Shown here piece by piece: positions 889-18,013 of a DNA stretch of 32,525 nucleotides. Each line of letters begins with the position of its first letter. Positions within the stretch are counted from its first letter, which is position 1. The position numbers and the translations under genes are program-made. Source of the stretch: Chromatiales bacterium. GTDB lineage: Bacteria; Pseudomonadota; Gammaproteobacteria; SZUA-140. The stretch spans positions 1 to 32,525 of the forward strand of contig JAITWN010000165.1 of the NCBI GenBank assembly GCA_031285245.1, read 5' to 3'. Under the pieces are notes generated by a model that worked only from the letters and a program-made list of their open reading frames with translations, had not been told where the DNA came from and did no database searches.

Positions 889-918
889 AACCCGGCCTCT
901 GAATGCCGGGTTTTTTTT
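889..918 (+). terminator. Rho-independent terminator
   Basis: AACCCGGC-CTCTGAAT-GCCGGGTT followed by a T run. Confidence 0.9.
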
Positions 919-964
919 GGCGTTTTTCCGATTACTCTTCCCCACTCTCGCTCATGTTGTGGTC

Positions 965-1504
965 ATGCCTCAGGAAACTCCCGCACAGGATCTGCGTAAA
1001 CTCATCAAGTTCCTGATCGCCTCGGCGTTCTACTTTTTTGTTGGAACTGTCCATGGCGTCGCTCAGGTTATTCCTTCAGTGCGTATCTGGCTCGATTCGA
1101 TTGGCAGCCCCTACGGCGGCCCCGGTCACATGATCGATCCCTTAGCCCACGCCCATATCAACGTCGTCGGTGGTGTCGTGCTCTTGTGCATGGCAGTCAC
1201 TTATTACATGCTCACCACGCTGTCGAGGCGACCGATCTGGTCCATGCGGCTGGTCGATCATTCCTTCTGGTGGACCGCGCTCGGCGTTGCCGGCTTCTAT
1301 TCCACGCTGATGACCTTCGGCATTGTCGAAGGCAATATGCTGCTGCGTGGTGAAACCGAGGCTATCTATAAATTACACCGCTTCTACGGCCCCTTCATCG
1401 CTATCATCTCGACCGGGATGGGCGTGGGTTTTTGGCTGTTTTTTGCCAATATTTTCATGACAGCTAAATCCATTTACTCTACCCCCTCGTCCAAAACCGC
1501 ATGA
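965..1504 (+). CDS. Short heme-copper oxidase subunit I-like membrane protein (C-terminal CcoN-like)
   Basis: 'LAHAHINVVGG...YYMLTTLSRRPIWSMRLVDHSFWWTALGVAGFYSTLMTFGIVEG' parallels CcoN helices X-XI ('GHVHSGALGW...[25 protein letters not shown]'). The tracked TTG start at 917 lies in the terminator, so ATG 965 is preferred. Confidence 0.7.
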   Translation: MPQETPAQDLRKLIKFLIASAFYFFVGTVHGVAQVIPSVRIWLDSIGSPYGGPGHMIDPLAHAHINVVGGVVLLCMAVTYYMLTTLSRRPIWSMRLVDHSFWWTALGVAGFYSTLMTFGIVEGNMLLRGETEAIYKLHRFYGPFIAIISTGMGVGFWLFFANIFMTAKSIYSTPSSKTA

Positions 1505-2703: not shown

Positions 2704-3161
2704 GGTTTGCCAGAAGCATCCTGCTTCGATTCGCTGCTCTCATCGCTTCTAGACTGCTTGTCGCTATCGAGTCTGCCCGCGATGTTGCTACCGTAGAACT
2801 GAACCATAAAATAAACAAAAGCACCGAAAACCAAGATATACGCGATCGCGGCACCAAAACCCCAATTGACCCACTCGCGCTCATATCCCGGGCGATCGCC
2901 CCAGAACGGAAAACTCAGACCTATCGCCACCAGAAACACCATGACGATAATCGCGATGAACCAGACTGGGACATTGCGCTGCGACTCAGGGATTCGGTCT
3001 ACCAGCTCCCAATCCTCAAGACCGCGCTTGGCGAGGCGCTCTTCATCCGAAGCATAACCAAAGTGATCATCCGGCTGCGCGCCCCACTCACTGTGCACCG
3101 GATCCAGATTGGGAGCGGGCTTCCCGCTTTCATCCTGAGATTGTTTCTCTTCGTCGCTCAT
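2700..3161 (-). CDS. Membrane protein, weak CcoP N-terminal (FixP_N)-like, no heme motif
   Basis: 'NVPVWFIAIIVMVFLVAIGLSFPFWGDRPGYEREW' resembles the FixP_N pattern 'NPLPKWWF...YLVLYPGLG...GLLPGYE'. No CXXCH. Confidence 0.55.
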   Translation of the reverse strand: MSDEEKQSQDESGKPAPNLDPVHSEWGAQPDDHFGYASDEERLAKRGLEDWELVDRIPESQRNVPVWFIAIIVMVFLVAIGLSFPFWGDRPGYEREWVNWGFGAAIAYILVFGAFVYFMVQFYGSNIAGRLDSDKQSRSDESSESKQDASGKP

Positions 3162-4501
3162 GCGCCTCCCTCAACCAGATGATGGACGCGGAAACTACGA
3201 CGCTCGCCATCTGGCGCGTTGAGATAAACCAAGAAAGGATGTAGCCCAGGCGCAAGACCAGCATTGATACGCAGATGGATATCCTTGCGACCGGCGCTCA
3301 AAAATTCGGCGTGATCCGCCTCTAACTGATAAGAACCCTCAGGCAGACCTTCGACGCTGACACTAATATCAACTGGCTGATAGAGCTTGCTCGCGATATT
3401 GATGCGGTAATCCCACTCGGCAGCATGCGCAGTCTCCGCGCGGTAAACCGTGTGTCGATAGGCATCATAAGACCACAAGCCCCAAGTGAACAACGCCACG
3501 CCAAACGCTGTCAGCATCGCTGCCCAAGGCGCACGCAACATCACCGAACCAACGTTGCCGCGTCGAGACGTCTGCGCGCCACTCTGCTCTCCGAACCCGA
3601 AACGCAGAAGACTATTGCCGGTCTTGCGCGCGCCGCGCACGGTGCTGCACGCAGTAATGCATTCACCACAGTTGATGCAGGCGTCATAAACCACCGTCTG
3701 CCGCGGATCAATGCCGATGAAGCAGGAGGTTTCGCAGAAATTACAACGCGCGCATTCATCCTGGTGGCTATTGTCATAGGCGATACGCAAGGTCTCACGT
3801 GTCTTAAAAGAATGCTGCCAAACACGATAGACACACATGAATCTGCACCAGAAGTGGCGCACAAACGCGATGTTGACGAACAGTATCAACACGAAGATGG
3901 TGTATATCCAATGCAGAGAGCCCGCGAGACGCTCATCGTGTTGGAACGTTACGAAATGCCACAGTTGTTCTGGAGAATAGAAATAGAACATCGGCACAAA
4001 CGCCGTCACCATTGCCGCGAGGAGAAAAACGCTACCGAGGATCGTCCAGTTGATCCACTTGTTTTTGCCAGAGGAAACTTTAATCGGCTTGCCATCCAGA
4101 CTGACCTCCGCGCGCTTACCAAGCAAGCGGTGCGTCATGTGATTAGCCCACTCAGCGAGCGTATTCTGCGGGCAGGACCAACCACAAAATGCTGTACCAA
4201 CTAGCGAATAAGTCATCACCAGCAGACTGGATAGCGCCAGCCATAAACCAATCACGATGTAGAAATCAGAAAACCAGATCTGCCGATCAAGGACAACGAA
4301 CGCACCATCCACCGGATCAATACGGAACAATCCGGAAACGGGGATCAGGATCGCAAGCAGAACTGTACCGATTTGGACTGCGCGGCGCCGGCTGTGCAAC
4401 TTGCGACCAGCCTTGGCATCCGCGCTGACAATGGGGATTTGCGACAGTGCCTTCGAGTAGTGCATGCCGCAAATACTAGCACGCGACGCATCATCTTTCA
4501 C
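3158..4501 (-). CDS. ccoG: Cytochrome c oxidase accessory protein CcoG (4Fe-4S ferredoxin-like membrane protein)
   Basis: TM segments, GWSCPQ motif, CARCNFCETSCFIGIDPRQ and CINCGECITACS clusters, C-terminal Ig-like domain. Confidence 0.93.
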   Translation of the reverse strand: MKDDASRASICGMHYSKALSQIPIVSADAKAGRKLHSRRRAVQIGTVLLAILIPVSGLFRIDPVDGAFVVLDRQIWFSDFYIVIGLWLALSSLLVMTYSLVGTAFCGWSCPQNTLAEWANHMTHRLLGKRAEVSLDGKPIKVSSGKNKWINWTILGSVFLLAAMVTAFVPMFYFYSPEQLWHFVTFQHDERLAGSLHWIYTIFVLILFVNIAFVRHFWCRFMCVYRVWQHSFKTRETLRIAYDNSHQDECARCNFCETSCFIGIDPRQTVVYDACINCGECITACSTVRGARKTGNSLLRFGFGEQSGAQTSRRGNVGSVMLRAPWAAMLTAFGVALFTWGLWSYDAYRHTVYRAETAHAAEWDYRINIASKLYQPVDISVSVEGLPEGSYQLEADHAEFLSAGRKDIHLRINAGLAPGLHPFLVYLNAPDGERRSFRVHHLVEGGA

Positions 4502-7584: not shown

Positions 7585-7842
7585 TTATCGCTGCTCGGCT
7601 TCGGGGTTCACTTGTTCTTGAGCCCCCTTTTCACTCTCAGGATGACGCAGCGTCCACCAATAAAGCACCGCCATCAAAATAAATGGCACCATCAATATCA
7701 GTAACAGGAAAATGAAGATATACCAGATGGTATCAATGGTGACATGCAGATAGCGGTAGCTATCGAATGCAAAAGCCGGCGCTGGTAATAAAGCCAATAG
7801 AACGAGCGGCCAACGTGACAGGAACTTCAACAACATGATCAT
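7585..7842 (-). CDS. Small membrane protein
   Basis: Signal-like N-terminus plus one long TM. ATGA overlap with the upstream gene. Confidence 0.65.
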   Translation of the reverse strand: MIMLLKFLSRWPLVLLALLPAPAFAFDSYRYLHVTIDTIWYIFIFLLLILMVPFILMAVLYWWTLRHPESEKGAQEQVNPEAEQR

Positions 7843-8921
7843 TGCTGTTTAGTACTCCGCTCCAGATCGGCCGCGATTCGAAAACCGAAAAAATCCGACG
7901 CATACTGCGGCCAAGAATAATTACGGTGATAATTCGCTGTGGAAAATGGGTCACTCTTCCATGAACCACCGCGCAATACTTTGTAGCTTCCCTCTACTGG
8001 CACCAAATCGACAACTTTCATCGCTTCATCAAGCGGCGTGGTTGCCTTGGCGACATGTCCTTGGAAATATTCCGGCGATGCATCGTTACCGGGATAAGGC
8101 TGAAAACTGTCAGCCGTCCACTCACTGACATTTCCAGCCATATCCATGACACCAAACGGGCTGCCGCCTTCAGGGAACTTGGTCACTTCACTCGTCGCAC
8201 CGACGGTATAGTAAGTATTGAGGCGAGCAGTATCCATCTCATCGCCCCAAGGCCAGCGACGACCATCGGTGCCGCGGGCGGCTTTTTCCCATTCAGCCTC
8301 TCGCGGCAAACGCCCGCCTGCCCAAGCAGCATAGGCACCAGCGTCATGCCAGGAAACCATCGTGACGGGATGCAGCGCCTGCCCCTGGCGAAACTTCCCG
8401 CCATCCCAATTGAGTGGAGGACGGTGCCCAGTGGCAGCGACAAACCGTGCATATTGTGCATTGGTCACTGGATACTTGCTGATCTCGAACGCCGCGAGCG
8501 AAACGCGATGCTGCGGAGTGTCTTGTACAGCGCTGCGAGAACGATCGGTACCCATCAGAAACTCGCCAGCGGGAATGGTAATGAGCGTATCAATTTCAGC
8601 CCATTGCTCCGCGCTCAAAAGCGCTTCTGCCTCAGCCACCGTATAAGAGTTATACGCAGCAGTGGGGTGCTCATGCTTTTCATGACGAGACAGTTCTTCT
8701 CCGGAGGCGCGTAGGCGCGAGCCCACTTCAGAGAGATCATAGCCCGCTTTCGAGCGCATCTCGTCCATACGCTTGGAGCCGATCTGCAGAATGTGGAGGC
8801 TTCCCCCCACCATAGCCAATGAAATGCAGGTAATGATCGTCGCAGCCAGATAACGCTTACGGCGTTGACGCACACTCTCATCGTTCACGCTTGAAACCCC
8901 GGGCGGATAACTCACACTCAT
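7839..8921 (-). CDS. Membrane-anchored formylglycine-generating enzyme (SUMF1/FGE-fold) family protein
   Basis: N-terminal TM. 'IPAGEFLMGTDRSRSAVQDTPQHRVSLAAFEISKYPVTNAQYARFVAATG', 'PVTMVSWHDAGAYAAWAGGRLPREAEWEKAARG', 'VLRGGSW...FGFRIA'. Confidence 0.92.
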   Translation of the reverse strand: MSVSYPPGVSSVNDESVRQRRKRYLAATIITCISLAMVGGSLHILQIGSKRMDEMRSKAGYDLSEVGSRLRASGEELSRHEKHEHPTAAYNSYTVAEAEALLSAEQWAEIDTLITIPAGEFLMGTDRSRSAVQDTPQHRVSLAAFEISKYPVTNAQYARFVAATGHRPPLNWDGGKFRQGQALHPVTMVSWHDAGAYAAWAGGRLPREAEWEKAARGTDGRRWPWGDEMDTARLNTYYTVGATSEVTKFPEGGSPFGVMDMAGNVSEWTADSFQPYPGNDASPEYFQGHVAKATTPLDEAMKVVDLVPVEGSYKVLRGGSWKSDPFSTANYHRNYSWPQYASDFFGFRIAADLERSTKQQ

Positions 8922-9385
8922 CCGCTTTTTTCCCCAGAATCAGGATGATCAGATTTACTGCGATAGACCTCTTCTCGCGGCAACCGCCCATAGGTACGTT
9001 TGATAATAATTTCACCAAAGACGCCACCGAAAGCTGCCGCCTCAACCGCCAAGATCACAAACATTATCCAGAAAGGGAAATACAGAAGCTGAGTACCAAA
9101 TGGGGGTTCAGTAAAATAGAGATAGTTGGCATAGCCGATGCTGCGCACGATCAACGGCGGAAAATAGCATAACCATTTTCCACCCAGACCAAAAATCATT
9201 GCTACTACGACGCCAGAAATCAGCGGGACAACAAATATATTGACCATCCACAGCGCTGAAAAAGTATCAAGACCTCGCCACAGTTCAATATTCACTCCAA
9301 GTAAAATATCGCCAAGGTAATTGACAGCACAGCCAGCAAGCAGTGCGATAAAACCTGTGAGATTACGCTTGAATTGCTTGTTCAT
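8918..9385 (-). CDS. Four-TM membrane protein of unknown function
   Basis: Start MNKQFKRNL overlaps the stop of the upstream cytochrome gene (TAATG). Several TM segments. Confidence 0.65.
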   Translation of the reverse strand: MNKQFKRNLTGFIALLAGCAVNYLGDILLGVNIELWRGLDTFSALWMVNIFVVPLISGVVVAMIFGLGGKWLCYFPPLIVRSIGYANYLYFTEPPFGTQLLYFPFWIMFVILAVEAAAFGGVFGEIIIKRTYGRLPREEVYRSKSDHPDSGEKSG

Positions 9386-9873
9386 TAGCAGTCGTTCTCG
9401 CTTCCTGTCAGTTTGGCGCAACGCGCACGGCGAACTTCATCCAGATCCCAATCGCGAACCTTGAGACTGGCCATATACGCCGCAAGTGTGCGTCGCTCAC
9501 TCTCAGGAAGGTGGGCAAAAGAAGGCATTTGATATTCTTCTTTCAATCGCGAAGGAAGAATTTGCTGGGGATTCTGCGCGGAGAAATATTCAAAAAACCA
9601 TTCCTCACTGTGGATGGATCCCATGCCATCCAATGCGGGCGCTGGCACAGCTTGCATAAGGTTGCGCACTGTCCATAGCGTGTGGCATTCCTTGCAGTTC
9701 TGCTGCCGGTAAATTTCCCCAGCCTCGTGAAGTAAAGCAGCGGACGCCGTCGTGTAAAAAGGAATTTCACGATCGTGTTCGCTGCTCTCCCGCTGACGCA
9801 GAAAGTTCCAGAGCATTGCCCCCAGAACAACTACTGCGATGAGGAGATAAATCCTCTTCTCACCTGTCCTCAT
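9385..9873 (-). CDS. Membrane-anchored monoheme c-type cytochrome
   Basis: N-terminal TM; CKECH motif; 'EEYQMPSFAHLPESERRTLAAYMASLK' cytochrome c fold. Confidence 0.85.
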   Translation of the reverse strand: MRTGEKRIYLLIAVVVLGAMLWNFLRQRESSEHDREIPFYTTASAALLHEAGEIYRQQNCKECHTLWTVRNLMQAVPAPALDGMGSIHSEEWFFEYFSAQNPQQILPSRLKEEYQMPSFAHLPESERRTLAAYMASLKVRDWDLDEVRRARCAKLTGSENDC

Positions 9874-10153
9874 GCTGCTTCGCGTGCTGCGCCTTCTCCT
9901 GCGCCTTCTCGCGCAGAAATTCTTCGCGGCGCTTAACCTGCTGTGCTAATACCTCACGGCTTTTGGCATACTCCTCAGGAGACATTTTGTCCTTGTCGTT
10001 CTCATCGAAGACCAGGTATTTGATGTCTTCATCAAACTGCTCATTCTTATAAGCCCAGCGCAAACCGTACATGGCAGCAAAAATAATTAACCCACCAGCG
10101 ACCAGCCATATATAAATGGTCCATCCGTCTGGAAGTGATTGTAAGAAATTCAT
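9860..10153 (-). CDS. CcoS-like small membrane protein with charged C-terminal extension
   Basis: 'LRWAYKNEQFDEDIKYLVFDEND' resembles the CcoS signature 'WAVRSGQFDDLxGxxxRILxDD'. Confidence 0.5.
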   Translation of the reverse strand: MNFLQSLPDGWTIYIWLVAGGLIIFAAMYGLRWAYKNEQFDEDIKYLVFDENDKDKMSPEEYAKSREVLAQQVKRREEFLREKAQEKAQHAKQHEDR

Positions 10154-10165
10154 GATTGCCTCCTC

Positions 10166-10498
10166 CTAGAAAAGTCGGCCATATAACAATTGTAAAGCAC
10201 CAAACCCAACCGCAACAAACATACCGGCGACTATCATGAGAAATAATAGCTTCTCTCCAAACTTCAACCCGCCGCTCGCTTTGGAACTGAGGAAAAAACG
10301 AAACACGATAGCCGCGAAAACCGTAACCCCAATTAACATGAAGAAAAAGATGCCAATGCTGAATCGGTAACTTTCCATACCCTCGATCGTCCAATAGGAC
10401 GACGGGCCGCTCGCTTGCGCTTGTTGCTGTACCGTAATTACCGCGGAGTCCAATCGCGCCAGCAGTGACTGAAGAGGTTCGAACAGAGCCAATTTCAT
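10166..10498 (-). CDS. Two-TM membrane protein of unknown function
   Basis: Intact ORF in the gene string, two hydrophobic segments. Confidence 0.6.
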   Translation of the reverse strand: MKLALFEPLQSLLARLDSAVITVQQQAQASGPSSYWTIEGMESYRFSIGIFFFMLIGVTVFAAIVFRFFLSSKASGGLKFGEKLLFLMIVAGMFVAVGFGALQLLYGRLF

Positions 10499-10769: not shown

Positions 10770-11405
10770 TCAATGACCATGATGAACTGGCTGCCAACGA
10801 TAGTTGGGCAGGCGCTTCACCGCAATCATTACTGCCAGACAAAAGTAGGTTACGTAGAAGATATCGATGGTGTAGCCTTTGTCCCACCAGGGCTGCTTAC
10901 GCTCACGCGTACCATCCGCCTTCCAGTTACCCTCGAAGTTCGCCAGCAATACTTTGTAGCCGACGATGGTGTACTCTTCGAGATCCACCCGCGAGTTTTG
11001 CAACTCAATGATCTGATCTTTGACCAGGCGCAATTCGTTCATCGACAATGGATGGCGAACCTGCAGGGCTTCATACTTCGATTGGCCTTCACGAACAATC
11101 CTTACGATCTCAGCCATTGCTGCCTGATCACCGCCCGCTGCCTGCGCAGCTTGAACACGAGGACTATCCATCGCCGCCACATATTCAGCGTAAATTGCGG
11201 CCTGCGGACGTTGGCCCCAGAGCGGGAATGTCATCAGAAACGCGCTGATGATAGTCAGTCCCAGCAGCCATACCACAGGACGCGGCAGACGATTGTTGTC
11301 TTCGGTAATGCCGCCAAGCCCTTCAGCCTCCCACAGCTTGCGGGCCTTATCATTTTGCTCCTCATCAGAAAGACTGAAGAGCGGGTTGTCAAATTTCCAG
11401 GCCAT
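10770..11405 (-). CDS. Heme-free CcoP/FixP_N-like membrane subunit
   Basis: 'GLGGITEDNNRLPRPVVWLLGLTIISAFLMTFPLWGQRP' parallels CcoP '[36 protein letters not shown]'. No CXXCH. Second TM near the C-terminus. Confidence 0.6.
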   Translation of the reverse strand: MAWKFDNPLFSLSDEEQNDKARKLWEAEGLGGITEDNNRLPRPVVWLLGLTIISAFLMTFPLWGQRPQAAIYAEYVAAMDSPRVQAAQAAGGDQAAMAEIVRIVREGQSKYEALQVRHPLSMNELRLVKDQIIELQNSRVDLEEYTIVGYKVLLANFEGNWKADGTRERKQPWWDKGYTIDIFYVTYFCLAVMIAVKRLPNYRWQPVHHGH

Positions 11406-11420: not shown

Positions 11421-12371
11421 TTATTTCAGACTCAGAACAAAGTCAATCAGGTAACGCGCATCGCTCTTAGAAGCGGGCTCAGGCACTTCCGGCGGATAAA
11501 TCCGCTTGCCGGAGGCAAAGTCGCTATAGTCAGCGCGCCACTGGTTGTAGTTGATGACATTGCCACTCGCATCCTTCTCACCCCACAGATAGTCATAGCG
11601 GGGCATGATGGAGTGCGGTTGCACCAAGCGCGGATTGAAGAAGTGCATCATCATCCATTCGCGTGAAGAGTTACGTGAACCGACATGCAACAGATCAGGC
11701 GCTTTACGATCCGAACCAAACGCAGTTGGTGATTCGCTGTTGAAGTCACCGAGACGTGGCGGCGCACCAAACGACTGCCAGTCCTGGGTCTGCTCAGGCA
11801 ACAGCGTGTGGCACCACCAGCAGCCTTCGCGCACGAACATAATCTTGCCCGAGCCGACGTGCTGCGTGTCTTTATCGCTGACCGCCTTCAGAACCATATC
11901 CGGCGTCCAACCATGGGTCGCGGTGGCGTTTTCGATGTAATGAATGGGCTCACCATTCCACCGCCCCTCAGTCACCACAAAAACCGCACCTTGAGCTTGA
12001 TTAGCTTGACCAATCTTGCCTTTATCCAAGCTCAGATCTTCAACCCCCTTACCCATGATTCGGGGATGCCGGATCGAACTGGTGAAAGGTACGCCTGCGT
12101 CGTAAACATAGGCATAGGTCTCGTCGATCGGCGCGCCGGTTTTTGGATCGTTCCGGAGTACAACCGTCAGAGGCTTGTTATCTCCATGCAGGAACGGATC
12201 TTCAACCGAGAAACCACCCACACGACCATACATCAAGCCTTTTCTCAGACCCATTTCGGTTGAGGACACCTGCACAATGTCCAGGCTGGGCATGTACAGT
12301 GTGATCATCATTGATCCACCGAGCGCGATACCGAACAATCTCGCGCCAACTTTATATTCGCGGAATGCCAC
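11421..12371 (-). CDS. ccoO: CcoO-like monoheme cytochrome c subunit of cbb3-type oxidase with N-terminal insertion
   Basis: 'GSGKIMFVREGCWWCHTLLPEQ...APDLLHVGSRNSSREWMMMHFFNPRLVQPHSIMPRYDYLW' matches the CcoO core ('GREVYVREGCYNCHSQ...GPDLARVGGRYS..W...[20 protein letters not shown]'). Confidence 0.88.
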   Translation of the reverse strand: MAFREYKVGARLFGIALGGSMMITLYMPSLDIVQVSSTEMGLRKGLMYGRVGGFSVEDPFLHGDNKPLTVVLRNDPKTGAPIDETYAYVYDAGVPFTSSIRHPRIMGKGVEDLSLDKGKIGQANQAQGAVFVVTEGRWNGEPIHYIENATATHGWTPDMVLKAVSDKDTQHVGSGKIMFVREGCWWCHTLLPEQTQDWQSFGAPPRLGDFNSESPTAFGSDRKAPDLLHVGSRNSSREWMMMHFFNPRLVQPHSIMPRYDYLWGEKDASGNVINYNQWRADYSDFASGKRIYPPEVPEPASKSDARYLIDFVLSLK

Positions 12372-12412: not shown

Positions 12413-13819
12413 TTAGCGCTCGTACGCAATCTCGTGGGGCAGACGGCCCGCCGGGATTACAGTACCTTCGCGCGCAGTCATCCACATGTTGTAGAGCCAG
12501 ACGAGATTTCCGGTGAAAACCATGGTGCCGCCCACCCAACGCGCGATCATATACGGATGCTCCGCAATCACGACGTCAATGTAAGGAACCTCATAGATCT
12601 TACCTGCGCCCTGGATCAAACCTGCAATGGTCATCGAGATCCAGTAGATCGTGAAACCGATCAGCAGGAACCAGAAATGGAAGTTGGCCAGTGCGAGCGA
12701 ATACAACTTGCGGCGCATGATGGTCTGCAAGCCGTAGTAAACTGCAGCTGCTTCCAAGAAGGTGGAGAAGCCAAGCAGCGCAAGGTGAGCATGCGCCACG
12801 ATCCAGCCAGTACCATGGATATACCAGTTGATCGCACGGGTCTGCTGGAAACCACCCTGCATGTTGAGCGGAATCGCCATCAGCACGCCGGTGATGGTGA
12901 ATTTGATCTCAACGTTGTCGACAAAGAAACGCCACTTGCCCGTCATGGTGAGCAGCAGGTTCGACACGAAAGCGATTGCCGGCACCAGAATCAACACACC
13001 TTCCACTGAAGCGAATGACTTGAGCCACTCCGGCAACGGAGAAGACATCAAATGATGCGCAGCAGGCGTGGAGTAGAACACCACCACTGACCAGAAGTGC
13101 AAGTGACCGATACGGTGTGAATAGAGCGGATTACCCGTAATCTTCGGCACTGTATAGTAAGCAATAGCTGCAGCAACTGGTGTAATCCACAAACCGAGCA
13201 CATTGTGTGCGAACCACCAAGTCAGATACGCCTCGGTGAGCCCGGTGAGCTGGAAGTACTCCGGCAGGTTACCTACGAACAGCACGATGAACAGCATAAA
13301 GACCGCAGAAGCGAAGAACCAGTTGGTAGTGTAGATACCCTGAGTACGACGCTTGATAACCGTCATCCAAACGTTGATGCCGAGCGGCACAATGACACCA
13401 AACAGGATGATGAGGTCAATGAACCAAGGGAAGTCGGAGTATTCACGGCCAGAACTCATACCCGACCAAAGACACGTCAATGCTATCGACAAACCTGCAT
13501 TCCAGACGAAACAGTTCCAAACACCGAGTTTTTCAGACCAGAGCTTGGTATTACCGAGGGCTGGCGTGATGTACATCATTGCCATCGCGAAAGCCATCGA
13601 AATCCAGCCGAAAATCACGGCCATCACATGCACCTGACGCATGTGCCCAAACGAGAACAGTTCCGAACCAGTAACAAAGTCAGGGAACGCAAGCTTGGCG
13701 GCATTGAACGAGCCAAGACCCGTCCCAATAACAAACCAAACGATGGAAGAAATGCCAAAATATACGGCGGATGAACCCCTTGGGATATCCTCGGTTTTGG
13801 CGAACAGGTACTTGAACAT
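12413..13819 (-). CDS. ccoN: cbb3-type cytochrome c oxidase subunit I (divergent)
   Basis: Helix II 'MRQVHVMAVIF', helix VI 'WWFAHNVLGLW', 'LHFWSVVVFYSTPAAHH', 'GTGWIVAHAHLALLGF', strong SD GGGGGGAGG. Confidence 0.93.
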   Translation of the reverse strand: MFKYLFAKTEDIPRGSSAVYFGISSIVWFVIGTGLGSFNAAKLAFPDFVTGSELFSFGHMRQVHVMAVIFGWISMAFAMAMMYITPALGNTKLWSEKLGVWNCFVWNAGLSIALTCLWSGMSSGREYSDFPWFIDLIILFGVIVPLGINVWMTVIKRRTQGIYTTNWFFASAVFMLFIVLFVGNLPEYFQLTGLTEAYLTWWFAHNVLGLWITPVAAAIAYYTVPKITGNPLYSHRIGHLHFWSVVVFYSTPAAHHLMSSPLPEWLKSFASVEGVLILVPAIAFVSNLLLTMTGKWRFFVDNVEIKFTITGVLMAIPLNMQGGFQQTRAINWYIHGTGWIVAHAHLALLGFSTFLEAAAVYYGLQTIMRRKLYSLALANFHFWFLLIGFTIYWISMTIAGLIQGAGKIYEVPYIDVVIAEHPYMIARWVGGTMVFTGNLVWLYNMWMTAREGTVIPAGRLPHEIAYER

Positions 13820-14068: not shown

Positions 14069-14344
14069 TTAATGGGCCGACTTTTCGAGTTCGCCGTGGC
14101 GCTTGAGCGCGAGCATCACGATAATCGTGAATGCCACGCCGAACACGATCATGCACCAGTTCATGAAGCCCTGGAACGTGACCACGTTATAGGCATCGAG
14201 CCCTATGCCACCCCAATCATCGAAAGGACCGCGGCCCAGCGCGCACATAAGTGCCGCACCGAACACGCTGCCATTGCCCATGCCGGTGAGACCGCCACCG
14301 ATGACGGCTACCCAGAAGGTTTTACTGTAGGTGAGACGATTCAT
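14069..14344 (-). CDS. Two-TM membrane protein of unknown function, first gene of the ccoN-like operon
   Basis: Intact ORF after a long upstream non-coding region, co-oriented with ccoN. Confidence 0.65.
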   Translation of the reverse strand: MNRLTYSKTFWVAVIGGGLTGMGNGSVFGAALMCALGRGPFDDWGGIGLDAYNVVTFQGFMNWCMIVFGVAFTIIVMLALKRHGELEKSAH

Positions 14345-14912: not shown

Positions 14913-15368
14913 TCACTTGAAGACGCTCAGCTTACCCAAGATTTCCTGATACATCTTCAGATCGCCAAATTGTCCGCGGTGGAAAACATACTGACGACGC
15001 TGTCCGGATAAATCCATTCCACTCAAACCAAATGACTTTCCAGCGTAGTCCGGGAAAAAACGCACGTCTTTTACTAGTTCGACACGATCGCCGCTGCGCA
15101 AACCGACAGTCACTCGCTCTCGGTCACAACTGAGCGATAACGGCGAAGAAGGCAGTAGCATCAATCGACCAGACAGCACTCGATTAGCGCCGGCAAAGGT
15201 GAAGAAGAATCCCATGAAGAAAAGCAGGTAAGCCCAACTCTGAGAGGAGCTGAACCAAAGCTTGGCGCCAGTTGCGAGTAGGAAAATCACGGTGGGGACA
15301 TATAACAACAAGTCCCACACCATTCCTCTTTTATCCTGAGACAGGAGATAAGGCAAAGGCTCTTGCAT
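14913..15368 (-). CDS. Membrane protein of unknown function, PH-like C-terminal half possible
   Basis: Two TM segments then beta-rich region. Convergent with the 14714 gene, 1 nt apart. Confidence 0.6.
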   Translation of the reverse strand: MQEPLPYLLSQDKRGMVWDLLLYVPTVIFLLATGAKLWFSSSQSWAYLLFFMGFFFTFAGANRVLSGRLMLLPSSPLSLSCDRERVTVGLRSGDRVELVKDVRFFPDYAGKSFGLSGMDLSGQRRQYVFHRGQFGDLKMYQEILGKLSVFK

Positions 15369-15372
15369 AAGA

Positions 15373-15900
15373 TCAACCGACCTGCTGCCCCCGATCTTCC
15401 TGCCGCAATTGCACCGACATCACTCGTGTGAGCGTGGCATCCAGCTCATCGTAAAGCAATCTGCCCGCACGCTTGAATTGCACGACTTGGTTGCGATCGA
15501 TGACAAAAGTCCAAGGGTCCCCCATAACCTGGAAGGCTGTAAACGCCTCGGGATTGCGATATTGGTCCATGTGCAGGAAGAGTACATCATTCTGGTACTT
15601 TTCCATGATGCCCTTGAGCATTTGCAACTGCACATCGCAGACTGTGCAATGGCCTGGCGTTGCGAATTCAAGTACGACAGGCTTACCTGCCGCCAGCGCT
15701 TTATCAAGAGAGTACTGGTACATCCTTTCGTCAGGATAACGATAGGTCGTGATGAGACTGAAATCACCGCCAACATCAGCGAGAGTCTTGGTAGTTAGGG
15801 AAGGCGCGACAGAGCCTACGGTGACGGACTTTTGTACATCACACGCTGTCAGTGAGAACACCGCCAGGATACCCGCTAACGTCAAAAAACGTTTGCTCAT
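15373..15900 (-). CDS. Thioredoxin-like lipoprotein (CTVC redox motif)
   Basis: Lipobox 'FSLTAC'; 'PVVLEFATPGHCTVCDVQLQMLKGIMEKYQNDVLFLHMD...GDPWTFVIDRNQVV'; ATGA overlap with upstream gene. Confidence 0.8.
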   Translation of the reverse strand: MSKRFLTLAGILAVFSLTACDVQKSVTVGSVAPSLTTKTLADVGGDFSLITTYRYPDERMYQYSLDKALAAGKPVVLEFATPGHCTVCDVQLQMLKGIMEKYQNDVLFLHMDQYRNPEAFTAFQVMGDPWTFVIDRNQVVQFKRAGRLLYDELDATLTRVMSVQLRQEDRGQQVG

Positions 15901-16445
15901 CCCTTGCGCCCCCACCCTGGATCTTTTTCCCAACCCATGCAGGTACGAAAAATATTGTAGCCCCAGATCATATTAGCCAGCAGAACCAGAGATCCGAAAA
16001 TACCCAGCGCCCCCATTAGTGGACGGATCATTTTTTCCACTTCATCCGGCGCGTGCAACAAACTCTGCGTTCCGCTGATTATTCCAGCCGTAGTAAACAT
16101 GATTACCATTCCAAGCAAGCCTGTGTTGTGAATCCAAAAATGGACTTTCACCAGACGCAGGCTATGAATTTCGCGTCTTACTAGGCGCGGAATGAAATAA
16201 TACACAGCACCAAAAATCGCCATCTCCACCCAACCCAGCAAGTTGACGTGAGTGTGAGCGCGCACGATCAACTCTCCGCCCATTCCTGCGCGCCCATGAA
16301 CAAATTGGCGAATCTCTGGAATACCGCCCATCAGCGCGCCCCAGGAAAAACCGATGATGCTATATATGATGCAGGCATAGACAAACAGCAGCGTATAACG
16401 TGTGTATTCCTTGTCGATCGCCCAGGGTTCATTGACGCTGCTCAT
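15897..16445 (-). CDS. Short heme-copper oxidase subunit I-like membrane protein (C-terminal CcoN-like)
   Basis: 'VRAHTHVNLLGWVEMAIFGAVYYFIPRL...LRLVKVHFWIHNTGLLGMVIMFTTAGIISG' matches CcoN helices X-XI. Start MSSVNEP has SD-like GGAGCGG. Confidence 0.78.
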   Translation of the reverse strand: MSSVNEPWAIDKEYTRYTLLFVYACIIYSIIGFSWGALMGGIPEIRQFVHGRAGMGGELIVRAHTHVNLLGWVEMAIFGAVYYFIPRLVRREIHSLRLVKVHFWIHNTGLLGMVIMFTTAGIISGTQSLLHAPDEVEKMIRPLMGALGIFGSLVLLANMIWGYNIFRTCMGWEKDPGWGRKG

Positions 16446-16502
16446 TTCCGCTCCTGTCTTGCTACACACTTAAATCAAAGTTACAAACCATAATCAAAAA
16501 TT

Positions 16503-17096
16503 TCACTCGCTCGGCGCATTGCCTTTTTCTTGCGGCACTTCTTTCTCGCGTACATCACTGTACTTTTCTTTCCAGGACTCCGGAGCAAAATTTTTCAGCA
16601 TATTATCCACGAACGCCGATTCGCCCTTGGGCGGGGCAGGCGCCGACGGAGAGCCTTGATCTGATTTGAGCTCTGAGAGGAAAATCGAGATTAATCGCAA
16701 TTCTTCAGAAGGTAGCAAAGACACAGAGGCGGCCTCTTTGGGAGGATAGCCATGATCAAATGTCTTTGCGCCATAAACTGCCTCTGGGTCACGCAGGAAG
16801 TTGTAGATCCATTCCTGAGTCCGACGCGAACCTAGGCCATCGAGTGACAAGCCCATGTTGGTGCCGTTGCGCATCGCTCGATGGCAAGCAGTACAACGAT
16901 GGGTGCGGAAAAGTTCTGACCCGCGTTGACCATCTGCGGAAAGATCGAAGTGAGTGGTGACCTCAAACACTGCCCCGCTGGCACGCAAGCGGTAGGCTTC
17001 TAAAGCGAGGTATGCAAGCACCGCAAAGCCAATGAAAGCTATAGCGATACCGAACAGGATCTTTTCTCCCTGCTTTAATGACTGTCCGCCGGCCAT
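16503..17096 (-). CDS. Membrane-anchored monoheme c-type cytochrome
   Basis: N-terminal TM then 'GSELFRTHRCTACHRAMRNG...GLGSRRTQEWIYNFLRDPE'. Confidence 0.85.
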   Translation of the reverse strand: MAGGQSLKQGEKILFGIAIAFIGFAVLAYLALEAYRLRASGAVFEVTTHFDLSADGQRGSELFRTHRCTACHRAMRNGTNMGLSLDGLGSRRTQEWIYNFLRDPEAVYGAKTFDHGYPPKEAASVSLLPSEELRLISIFLSELKSDQGSPSAPAPPKGESAFVDNMLKNFAPESWKEKYSDVREKEVPQEKGNAPSE

Positions 17097-17152
17097 GGCG
17101 CGATTATCCAGTAATAGCAGCCTTGATGCAAATTAAGGCACTGATGAGAAAA

Positions 17153-17177
17153 CAAAAAAGGGCGGGTAACCCCGCCC
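17153..17177 (-). terminator. Rho-independent terminator
   Basis: Minus strand GGGCGGG-GTTA-CCCGCCC-TTTTTT downstream of the diheme cytochrome gene. Confidence 0.88.
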
Positions 17178-17239
17178 TCTTGATCAGCCACCACATTGCC
17201 GGCTATCGACACCGGCAGCGTGGGGCTTATTTCATGTAC

Positions 17240-18013
17240 TTACTTCCCCCGGACGGAGACGTGACGCTCCGGGCGACGATAATTGCCCAACGTATACGGC
17301 GAAGCACCCGTCAAGAACGCCGCAGCATTATGGATGTCCTCATCGGTCATCTTGCGCGCTACTTTCTGCATCTGCTCAAGCGGGTCGTTGTTGCGACTGC
17401 CATCGCGCCAGTTGGTCAACTGGTTAACGAGGTAAACGTACTTCTGCTGACCGATCATGGGATAAATCGGCTCAACACCACGGCCATTGTAATCATGGCA
17501 AGAACGGCAGGCAGGAATATCACGCTCCGACACACCAAAGCTGACGATTCTCAAACCTTGAGCAGGATCACCAACGGTAACGCCTGCTTCTCTCAACGCT
17601 TTGAGATTGGAAGAACCCGTAGCTGATATCTTAGGGTCATGAGCCAAGCTGCTCACGTAGGCAGCCACATCGCGGCGATCTTCACTAGTCAGCTGCTTGG
17701 CGAAGATAGGCATCACCACACCCGCGCCGATACCAGCACGCCGATCTGTCGCAAAATCCTCTAACTGCTTGACTATAAATTCCACAACTTGACCGGCAAG
17801 ACGGGGAGTTCCCAGATTATCATTCCCCATTGCGTCCTCTTCGTGGCAAGACATACAAGCTGGCACATCGCCCTTGCCGTTTCTGAAGATGGACTGACCG
17901 TTCTCCAAACTGGCCGTTACGAAGCCGCCCCCCGCGGCCTGGACCTGCGCTACCGCGCTGACGGCGATAATCGCACCGGTGAGCATCGAAGCCAGGGTCG
18001 TTAAGCGTCGCAT
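17240..18013 (-). CDS. Diheme cytochrome c4-like protein
   Basis: Signal peptide; CMSCH and CRSCH motifs in two repeated cytochrome c domains. Confidence 0.9.
   Translation of the reverse strand: MRRLTTLASMLTGAIIAVSAVAQVQAAGGGFVTASLENGQSIFRNGKGDVPACMSCHEEDAMGNDNLGTPRLAGQVVEFIVKQLEDFATDRRAGIGAGVVMPIFAKQLTSEDRRDVAAYVSSLAHDPKISATGSSNLKALREAGVTVGDPAQGLRIVSFGVSERDIPACRSCHDYNGRGVEPIYPMIGQQKYVYLVNQLTNWRDGSRNNDPLEQMQKVARKMTDEDIHNAAAFLTGASPYTLGNYRRPERHVSVRGK

Follow-up and report, generated by a model that had tools for sequence, protein, structure and literature searches.

The oxidase locus

The window, i.e., the whole stretch of 32,525 nucleotides analysed from contig JAITWN010000165.1 of a Chromatiales bacterium, contains on its minus strand an open reading frame for a CcoN-like protein of 468 amino acids, together with genes encoding putative accessory subunits, cytochromes c and an assembly protein. 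The segment 12857-13135, to which the original prediction referred, corresponds on the minus strand to residues 229-321 of this protein; read on the plus strand, the same segment is interrupted by stops in the frame tested. The main genes are listed below with the number of loci possessing full flanks in which each was found. In these locus counts, the matches to short COX1 pieces and to one of the cytochromes consist partly of cross-matches to ccoN or to the other cytochrome.

12413-13819, minus strand: ccoN-like catalytic subunit I (PF00115, 262 bits; TIGR00780, 225 bits; Pseudomonas stutzeri CcoN 3mk7, E 1.1e-61)
11421-12371, minus strand: ccoO-like monoheme cytochrome c, 316 aa, FixO domain at residues 174-266 (PF02433, 65 bits; 38/38 loci)
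10770-11405, minus strand: heme-less CcoP-like subunit, 211 aa, two predicted transmembrane helices (42-62 and 178-198)
10166-10498, minus strand: small membrane protein, 110 aa (37/38 loci)
9860-10153, minus strand: small membrane protein, 97 aa, conserved motif DGWTIYxW...RWxxNxQFxEDIKY (38/38 loci)
9385-9873, minus strand: anchored monoheme cytochrome c, 162 aa (PF00034; 38/38 loci; CXXCH in 74/74)
14069-14344, minus strand: membrane protein, 91 aa, GNGSVF motif, upstream of ccoN (121 distinct sequences; 38/38 loci)
3158-4501, minus strand: CcoG-like polyferredoxin (oxidase assembly), Fer4 domains (34/38 loci)

The CcoN-like protein belongs to the heme-copper oxidase superfamily, its score for the Pfam COX1 family standing against a curated cut-off of 34.8 bits, and the six metal-ligand histidines are found at positions 64, 205, 255, 256, 343 and 345. 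The score for the canonical CcoN equivalog TIGR00780 lies well under the cut-off of 583 bits, as do those of relatives from Nitrotoga, Ferrovum and Sideroxydans (224-234 bits). All the top solved structures are nevertheless CcoN subunits, and the phmmer alignment with 3mk7 runs without a gap from the helix VI CuB histidine to the heme histidine pair, the spacings between anchor residues being equal in both proteins (50 residues from 205 to 255, 87 from 256 to 343). The helix VII tyrosine, Y249, occurs six residues ahead of the CuB histidine pair. Similarity to the nitric oxide reductase subunit NorB (4xyd) is weak (E 2.8e-8). An AlphaFold model built on a 12-row alignment was poor (pLDDT 49), and its Foldseek matches were CcoN subunits of cbb3 oxidases. 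The best explanation of these sequence data is that the gene encodes subunit I of a C-family heme-copper oxidase, which would reduce O2.

In all 38 loci with full flanks, ccoN, ccoO, the heme-less ccoP, the genes for the 91-aa and 97-aa proteins and that for the anchored monoheme cytochrome occur together. The CcoO-like protein scores below the TIGR00781 cut-off but possesses the CXXCH motif of a monoheme CcoO in 122/122 homologs. Throughout these 122 homologs, the part of the protein (11421-12371, minus strand) ahead of the heme domain is about 120 residues longer than the canonical N-terminal part. With respect to the CcoP-like protein, none of the 119 distinct sequences contains CXXCH, at variance with a diheme CcoP. 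The FixP_N family was weakly matched in 13 of 18 members, the protein of the window remaining under the Pfam cut-off, and E35, present in 115/119 sequences, aligns with the Glu preceding the NNPxP motif of canonical CcoP, which we take to be the entrance of the proton channel. A structural search with the AlphaFold model (pLDDT 75.8) gave no match, and searches of the PDB with the single sequence or the profile did not retrieve a CcoP, so that kinship with CcoP is suggested by the FixP_N matches and the motif alignment. As judged from these, the heme-less subunit keeps the N-terminal helix and the Glu. The 91-aa GNGSVF protein, for which Pfam gave no match, is possibly a new small subunit.

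Other genes of the window deserve mention. Two short, stand-alone COX1 pieces of about 190-195 aa, located at 15897-16469 (minus strand) and 917-1504 (plus strand), match the last quarter of COX1 only, including the HxH heme-ligand motif. In the named genomes searched, the full oxidase is likewise joined by two such pieces. A cassette at 14913-18013 (minus strand) comprises a diheme cytochrome, separate from the oxidase subunits (17240-18013), a monoheme cytochrome, a short COX1 piece, a thioredoxin-like protein and a 151-aa protein. It changes place as a unit, being mostly located upstream of ccoN and, in some loci (L068, L071 and L081), downstream. A protein resembling the formylglycine-generating enzyme and provided with a membrane helix (7839-8921, minus strand) is encoded next to the oxidase in 35 of the 38 loci with full flanks, and no sulfatase was seen near its gene.

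The clade and its conserved substitutions

The nearest orthologs of the CcoN-like protein, 78-93% identical, are distributed throughout the family of the source organism and in other families, while orthologs at 75-79% identity occur in additional families of the same phylum. Named matches among the GTDB contigs include Gallionella, Sideroxydans, Ferrovum, Ca. Nitrotoga, Nitrosomonadales and many gammaproteobacterial MAGs, the named relatives being mainly iron oxidisers (Gallionella, Sideroxydans, Ferrovum) along with the nitrite oxidiser Ca. Nitrotoga. A search for close relatives borne on plasmids found none, the best match being about 33%. In an unrooted tree of 71 proteins built by a quick method, the clade forms one side of a fully supported and long branch, of about 2.5 changes per column. 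The clade and the other proteins with Gln at position 323 share one side of the deepest branch, a union which is unsure because long branches meet there.

The conservation of individual residues was assessed in 126 distinct members of the clade and 47 other C-family proteins. Parsimony on the tree requires a single change between Glu and Gln and a single change between Tyr and His, so that the figure of 126 counts sequences and not events, the changes tracing to one ancestor. For the residues listed here, the number in the window protein equals the P. stutzeri number minus 2 (H235 thus corresponds to Y237).

13205-13207, minus strand: H205, CuB ligand (H207 in P. stutzeri), codon CAC; 126/126 clade, 47/47 others
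13115-13117, minus strand: H235, codon CAC, replacing Y237; His in 126/126 clade, Tyr in 47/47 others
13106-13108, minus strand: G238, codon GGT, replacing S240; Gly in 126/126 clade, Ser in 46/47 others
13103-13105, minus strand: H239, a new His replacing Ile, Val or Leu 241; 126/126 clade, 0/47 others
13073-13075, minus strand: Y249, codon TAC, cross-link Tyr position (Y251); 126/126 clade, 47/47 others
13052-13057, minus strand: H255-H256, codons CAT CAT, CuB His pair (H257/H258); 126/126 clade, 47/47 others
12959-12961, minus strand: N287 (N289), polar residue of helix VIII, kept; 126/126 clade, 47/47 others
12947-12949, minus strand: T291 (T293), polar residue of helix VIII, kept; 126/126 clade, 47/47 others
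12875-12877, minus strand: A315, replacing Y317; Ala in 126/126 clade, Tyr in 47/47 others
12857-12859, minus strand: Q321, codon CAG, replacing E323; Gln in 126/126 clade, Glu in 40 and Gln in 7 of the others
12785-12793, minus strand: H343-A-H345, ligands of heme b3 and heme b; both His in 126/126 clade

The metal-binding site is thus of the standard type, all six histidines and Y249 being present in every member of the clade, as the original prediction had stated from the sequence of the window. The same prediction held that the K-channel analogue was altered, and the gapless alignment with 3mk7, which does not restore Tyr, Ser or Glu at the positions concerned, agrees with it for Y237 and S240. 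It quoted the canonical segment as ALIYLYIW, which reads ALITVYIW in 3mk7, a slight difference without consequence for the residue assignments. We take Y237, S240 and Y317 (Y241, S244 and Y321 in V. cholerae numbering) to be residues of the K-channel analogue; in their place, the clade has His, Gly and Ala throughout. N289, T293 and Y251, which together with the entrance Glu of CcoP presumably belong to the polar residues of the C-family K-channel, are all retained, as is E35 in most CcoP-like proteins, and T213 (T215) and H241 (H243) are unchanged in 126/126 members. The list of channel residues reportedly goes back to Hemp et al. in 2007 and Buschmann et al. in 2010.

Only nine columns that are invariant in the 47 other proteins carry a different but equally invariant residue in the clade, namely E125D, H156G, L219A, Y237H, S240G, G255A, S276G, Y317A and F423Y. 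In addition, the stretch leading from the Tyr to the CuB His pair, YIWAGPHH, has become YSTPA(A/S)HH. This rebuilt segment, Y317A, I241H and the heme-less CcoP-like subunit all go beyond what had been predicted. The replacement of E323 by Gln was correctly read as far as the residue is concerned; it does not form part of a channel change specific to the clade and is no mark of it, because seven other C-family proteins carry Gln as well. As E323 is presumably located near the heme b3 proximal His, outside the uptake channel, E323Q is treated apart from the channel question. Two further clade-specific residues, Glu273 (13001-13003, minus strand), apparently in helix VIII, and Glu304 (12908-12910, minus strand), at the start of helix IX, each occur in 125/126 members at positions mostly hydrophobic elsewhere, and are further candidates for a role in proton handling.

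H235, G238, H239 and Q321 persist even in members that are only 58% identical to the protein of the window. The possibility that the substitutions are strain-specific noise, raised along with the prediction, is excluded because they are fixed in 126/126 members over several families, from the Gallionellaceae, Ferrovum and Nitrotoga to gammaproteobacterial MAGs and additional families within the phylum. The substitutions along the expected proton route are consistent across the clade.

Probable oxygen reduction and the proposed proton route

Heme-copper oxidases were searched for in ten named genomes, including seven draft assemblies of Ca. Nitrotoga. In each of the seven, the single full-length heme-copper oxidase is a member of the clade, accompanied by two short pieces, and cytochrome bd was not found in six of the seven; this sole-oxidase finding covers the heme-copper and bd types, in draft assemblies that can miss genes. 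Ca. Nitrotoga fabula is presented as nitrite-oxidising and aerobic, its kinetics having been followed by O2 uptake and its cbb3 oxidase being predicted to pump protons (PMC6050957); the ZN8 assembly of this species used here (L108) may differ from the characterised isolate. Since the clade enzyme is the sole candidate O2 reductase found in six assemblies, it may be argued that the clade reduces O2. It would conserve energy as well, since the proton-motive force that drives reverse electron flow would depend on this oxidase. Chemistry with O2 and not NO is thus likely, as proposed on the basis of the retained Tyr, the strongest evidence now coming from the Ca. Nitrotoga genomes in which no other O2 reductase was found.

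The situation differs in the source organism. Its draft genome contains no second full-length heme-copper oxidase but holds a cytochrome bd gene on another contig, so that the clade enzyme is not its sole O2 reductase. Unlike the autotrophic named relatives, this genome (88% complete) gave no match to RuBisCO, and the lifestyle of the source organism should not be assumed to equal that of these relatives.

The preferred reading, to which a probability of about 0.68 may be assigned, is that of an O2-reducing C-family oxidase with a re-lined single K-channel analogue and with electrons delivered via CcoO and probably the anchored cytochromes. Because the CcoP-like subunit is devoid of heme, the entry point for electrons would be the monoheme CcoO, probably together with the operon's anchored monoheme cytochromes, and O2 would be reduced at the standard heme b3-CuB-Tyr site. 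Protons would still use one K-channel analogue, with the entrance Glu on the CcoP-like helix. The route retains T215, H243, N289, T293, Y251 and the Glu of CcoP, so that the channel seems to have been re-lined and not abolished, the replacement of Y237, S240 and Y317 by His, Gly and Ala and the extra His at 241 possibly lining it with imidazoles. The rerouted proton path or altered pumping originally suggested may be understood in this sense; pumping itself may be unchanged, reduced or absent, the sequence being compatible with all three.

It is conceivable, if rather unlikely, that pumping is weakened or lost through the changes in the channel, leaving chemical protons only or fewer protons pumped per electron, for the reason that nitrite and low-pH Fe(II) as donors offer a small driving force towards O2. 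The clade has indeed lost three polar residues of the channel that are invariant among the other sampled C-family proteins, and Fe(II) or nitrite are the donors of the named relatives. However, the oxidase of Ca. Nitrotoga would have to support nearly all of the proton-motive force, including that for reverse electron flow, the entrance Glu and other polar residues are kept, and the argument from donor potentials is a poor fit to neutral-pH iron oxidisers.

Still more tentatively, the clade might represent a separate C-family class with a His-lined channel and an altered pumping stoichiometry, in which the YSTPA segment and the change from Glu to Gln permit work at millimolar nitrite, a prospect that we regard as doubtful. 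Ordinary cbb3 oxidases are nitrite-sensitive. Heme-copper oxidases are named as primary targets of nitrite in PMC8780969, and Ca. Nitrotoga is described as oxidising nitrite at up to 30 mM in PMC6050957. As Ca. Nitrotoga appears to respire by the clade oxidase alone, the enzyme may be hypothesised to tolerate nitrite.

Neutral drift or misalignment, which would deprive the substituted positions of functional meaning, seems improbable. On a branch of about 2.5 changes per column, with 67 of the 131 fixed columns of canonical CcoN altered or no longer fixed in the clade, a few channel changes could be expected; but there is no gap between the anchors, all 126 members, down to 58% identity, share the new residues, and the two new histidines, 235 and 239, are spaced by one helical turn. 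That the enzyme is a nitric oxide reductase which arose from a C-family oxidase is very improbable indeed. In favour of this view, the proton route and the Glu are altered, NorB shows weak similarity and the C family has nitric oxide reductases as its nearest outgroup; on the other hand, the Tyr absent from those enzymes is kept in 126/126 members, the nearest solved structures are cbb3 CcoN subunits, and the enzyme is the sole candidate O2 reductase found in six assemblies of an aerobic genus.

For the re-lined oxidase thus preferred, the consequences extend to bioenergetics. Calculations of the energy balance of iron and nitrite oxidisers start from a canonical cbb3 oxidase that pumps protons; if the proton route and the electron entry of the enzyme in use differ, such calculations, and the models of reverse electron flow with them, call for new measurements. 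Moreover, because three channel residues have been replaced together in an enzyme still in service in organisms without any apparent other O2 reductase, the clade offers a natural experiment on the essential residues of the single C-family channel. Whether and how the clade enzyme pumps protons is a testable question.

Relation to known oxidases

The cNOR subunit NorB has the superfamily fold in common with the clade but, unlike the clade, is not known to possess the active-site Tyr. A second group of C-family proteins (L025, L143-L145, L152, L170 and L181) resembles the clade by its Gln323 and its position on the same side of the deepest branch. It differs by the retention of Y237, Y317 and mostly S240, and by an identity of 25-31%, the grouping being unsure owing to long branches.

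The canonical cbb3 oxidase (CcoNOQP, P. stutzeri 3mk7 and 5djq) shares with the clade the fold, the six His ligands, the helix VII Tyr, N289, T293 and a monoheme CcoO. At about 30% identity, the clade is distinguished by Y237H, S240G, I241H, Y317A, E323Q and YSTPA(A/S)HH, by a CcoP-like subunit without hemes and by extra conserved small proteins.

The enzymes of the clade are already known from iron and nitrite oxidisers, where they are annotated as cbb3 oxidases. In PMC4725956, PMC6050957, PMC8788666 and PMC7029218, the enzyme is handled as an ordinary cbb3 oxidase, in part explicitly as a proton-pumping one, and no description of the channel substitutions or of a heme-less CcoP was found in the portions consulted of the open-licence literature on these oxidases. 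For Ferrovum JA12, PMC4725956 reports subunits I and II without subunit III (ccoP), with co-localised cytochromes in place of III, a report which fits the heme-less CcoP-like subunit found here. For Sideroxydans ES-1 and the Zetaproteobacteria, two types of cbb3 oxidase, proximal and distal, are distinguished in PMC8788666 and PMC7029218, the two types of Sideroxydans ES-1 differing in their response to Fe(II) versus thiosulfate (PMC8788666). The "cbb3-type oxidases" of iron and nitrite oxidisers very probably correspond to the clade enzymes, assemblies of Ferrovum, Nitrotoga and Sideroxydans being represented in the clade.
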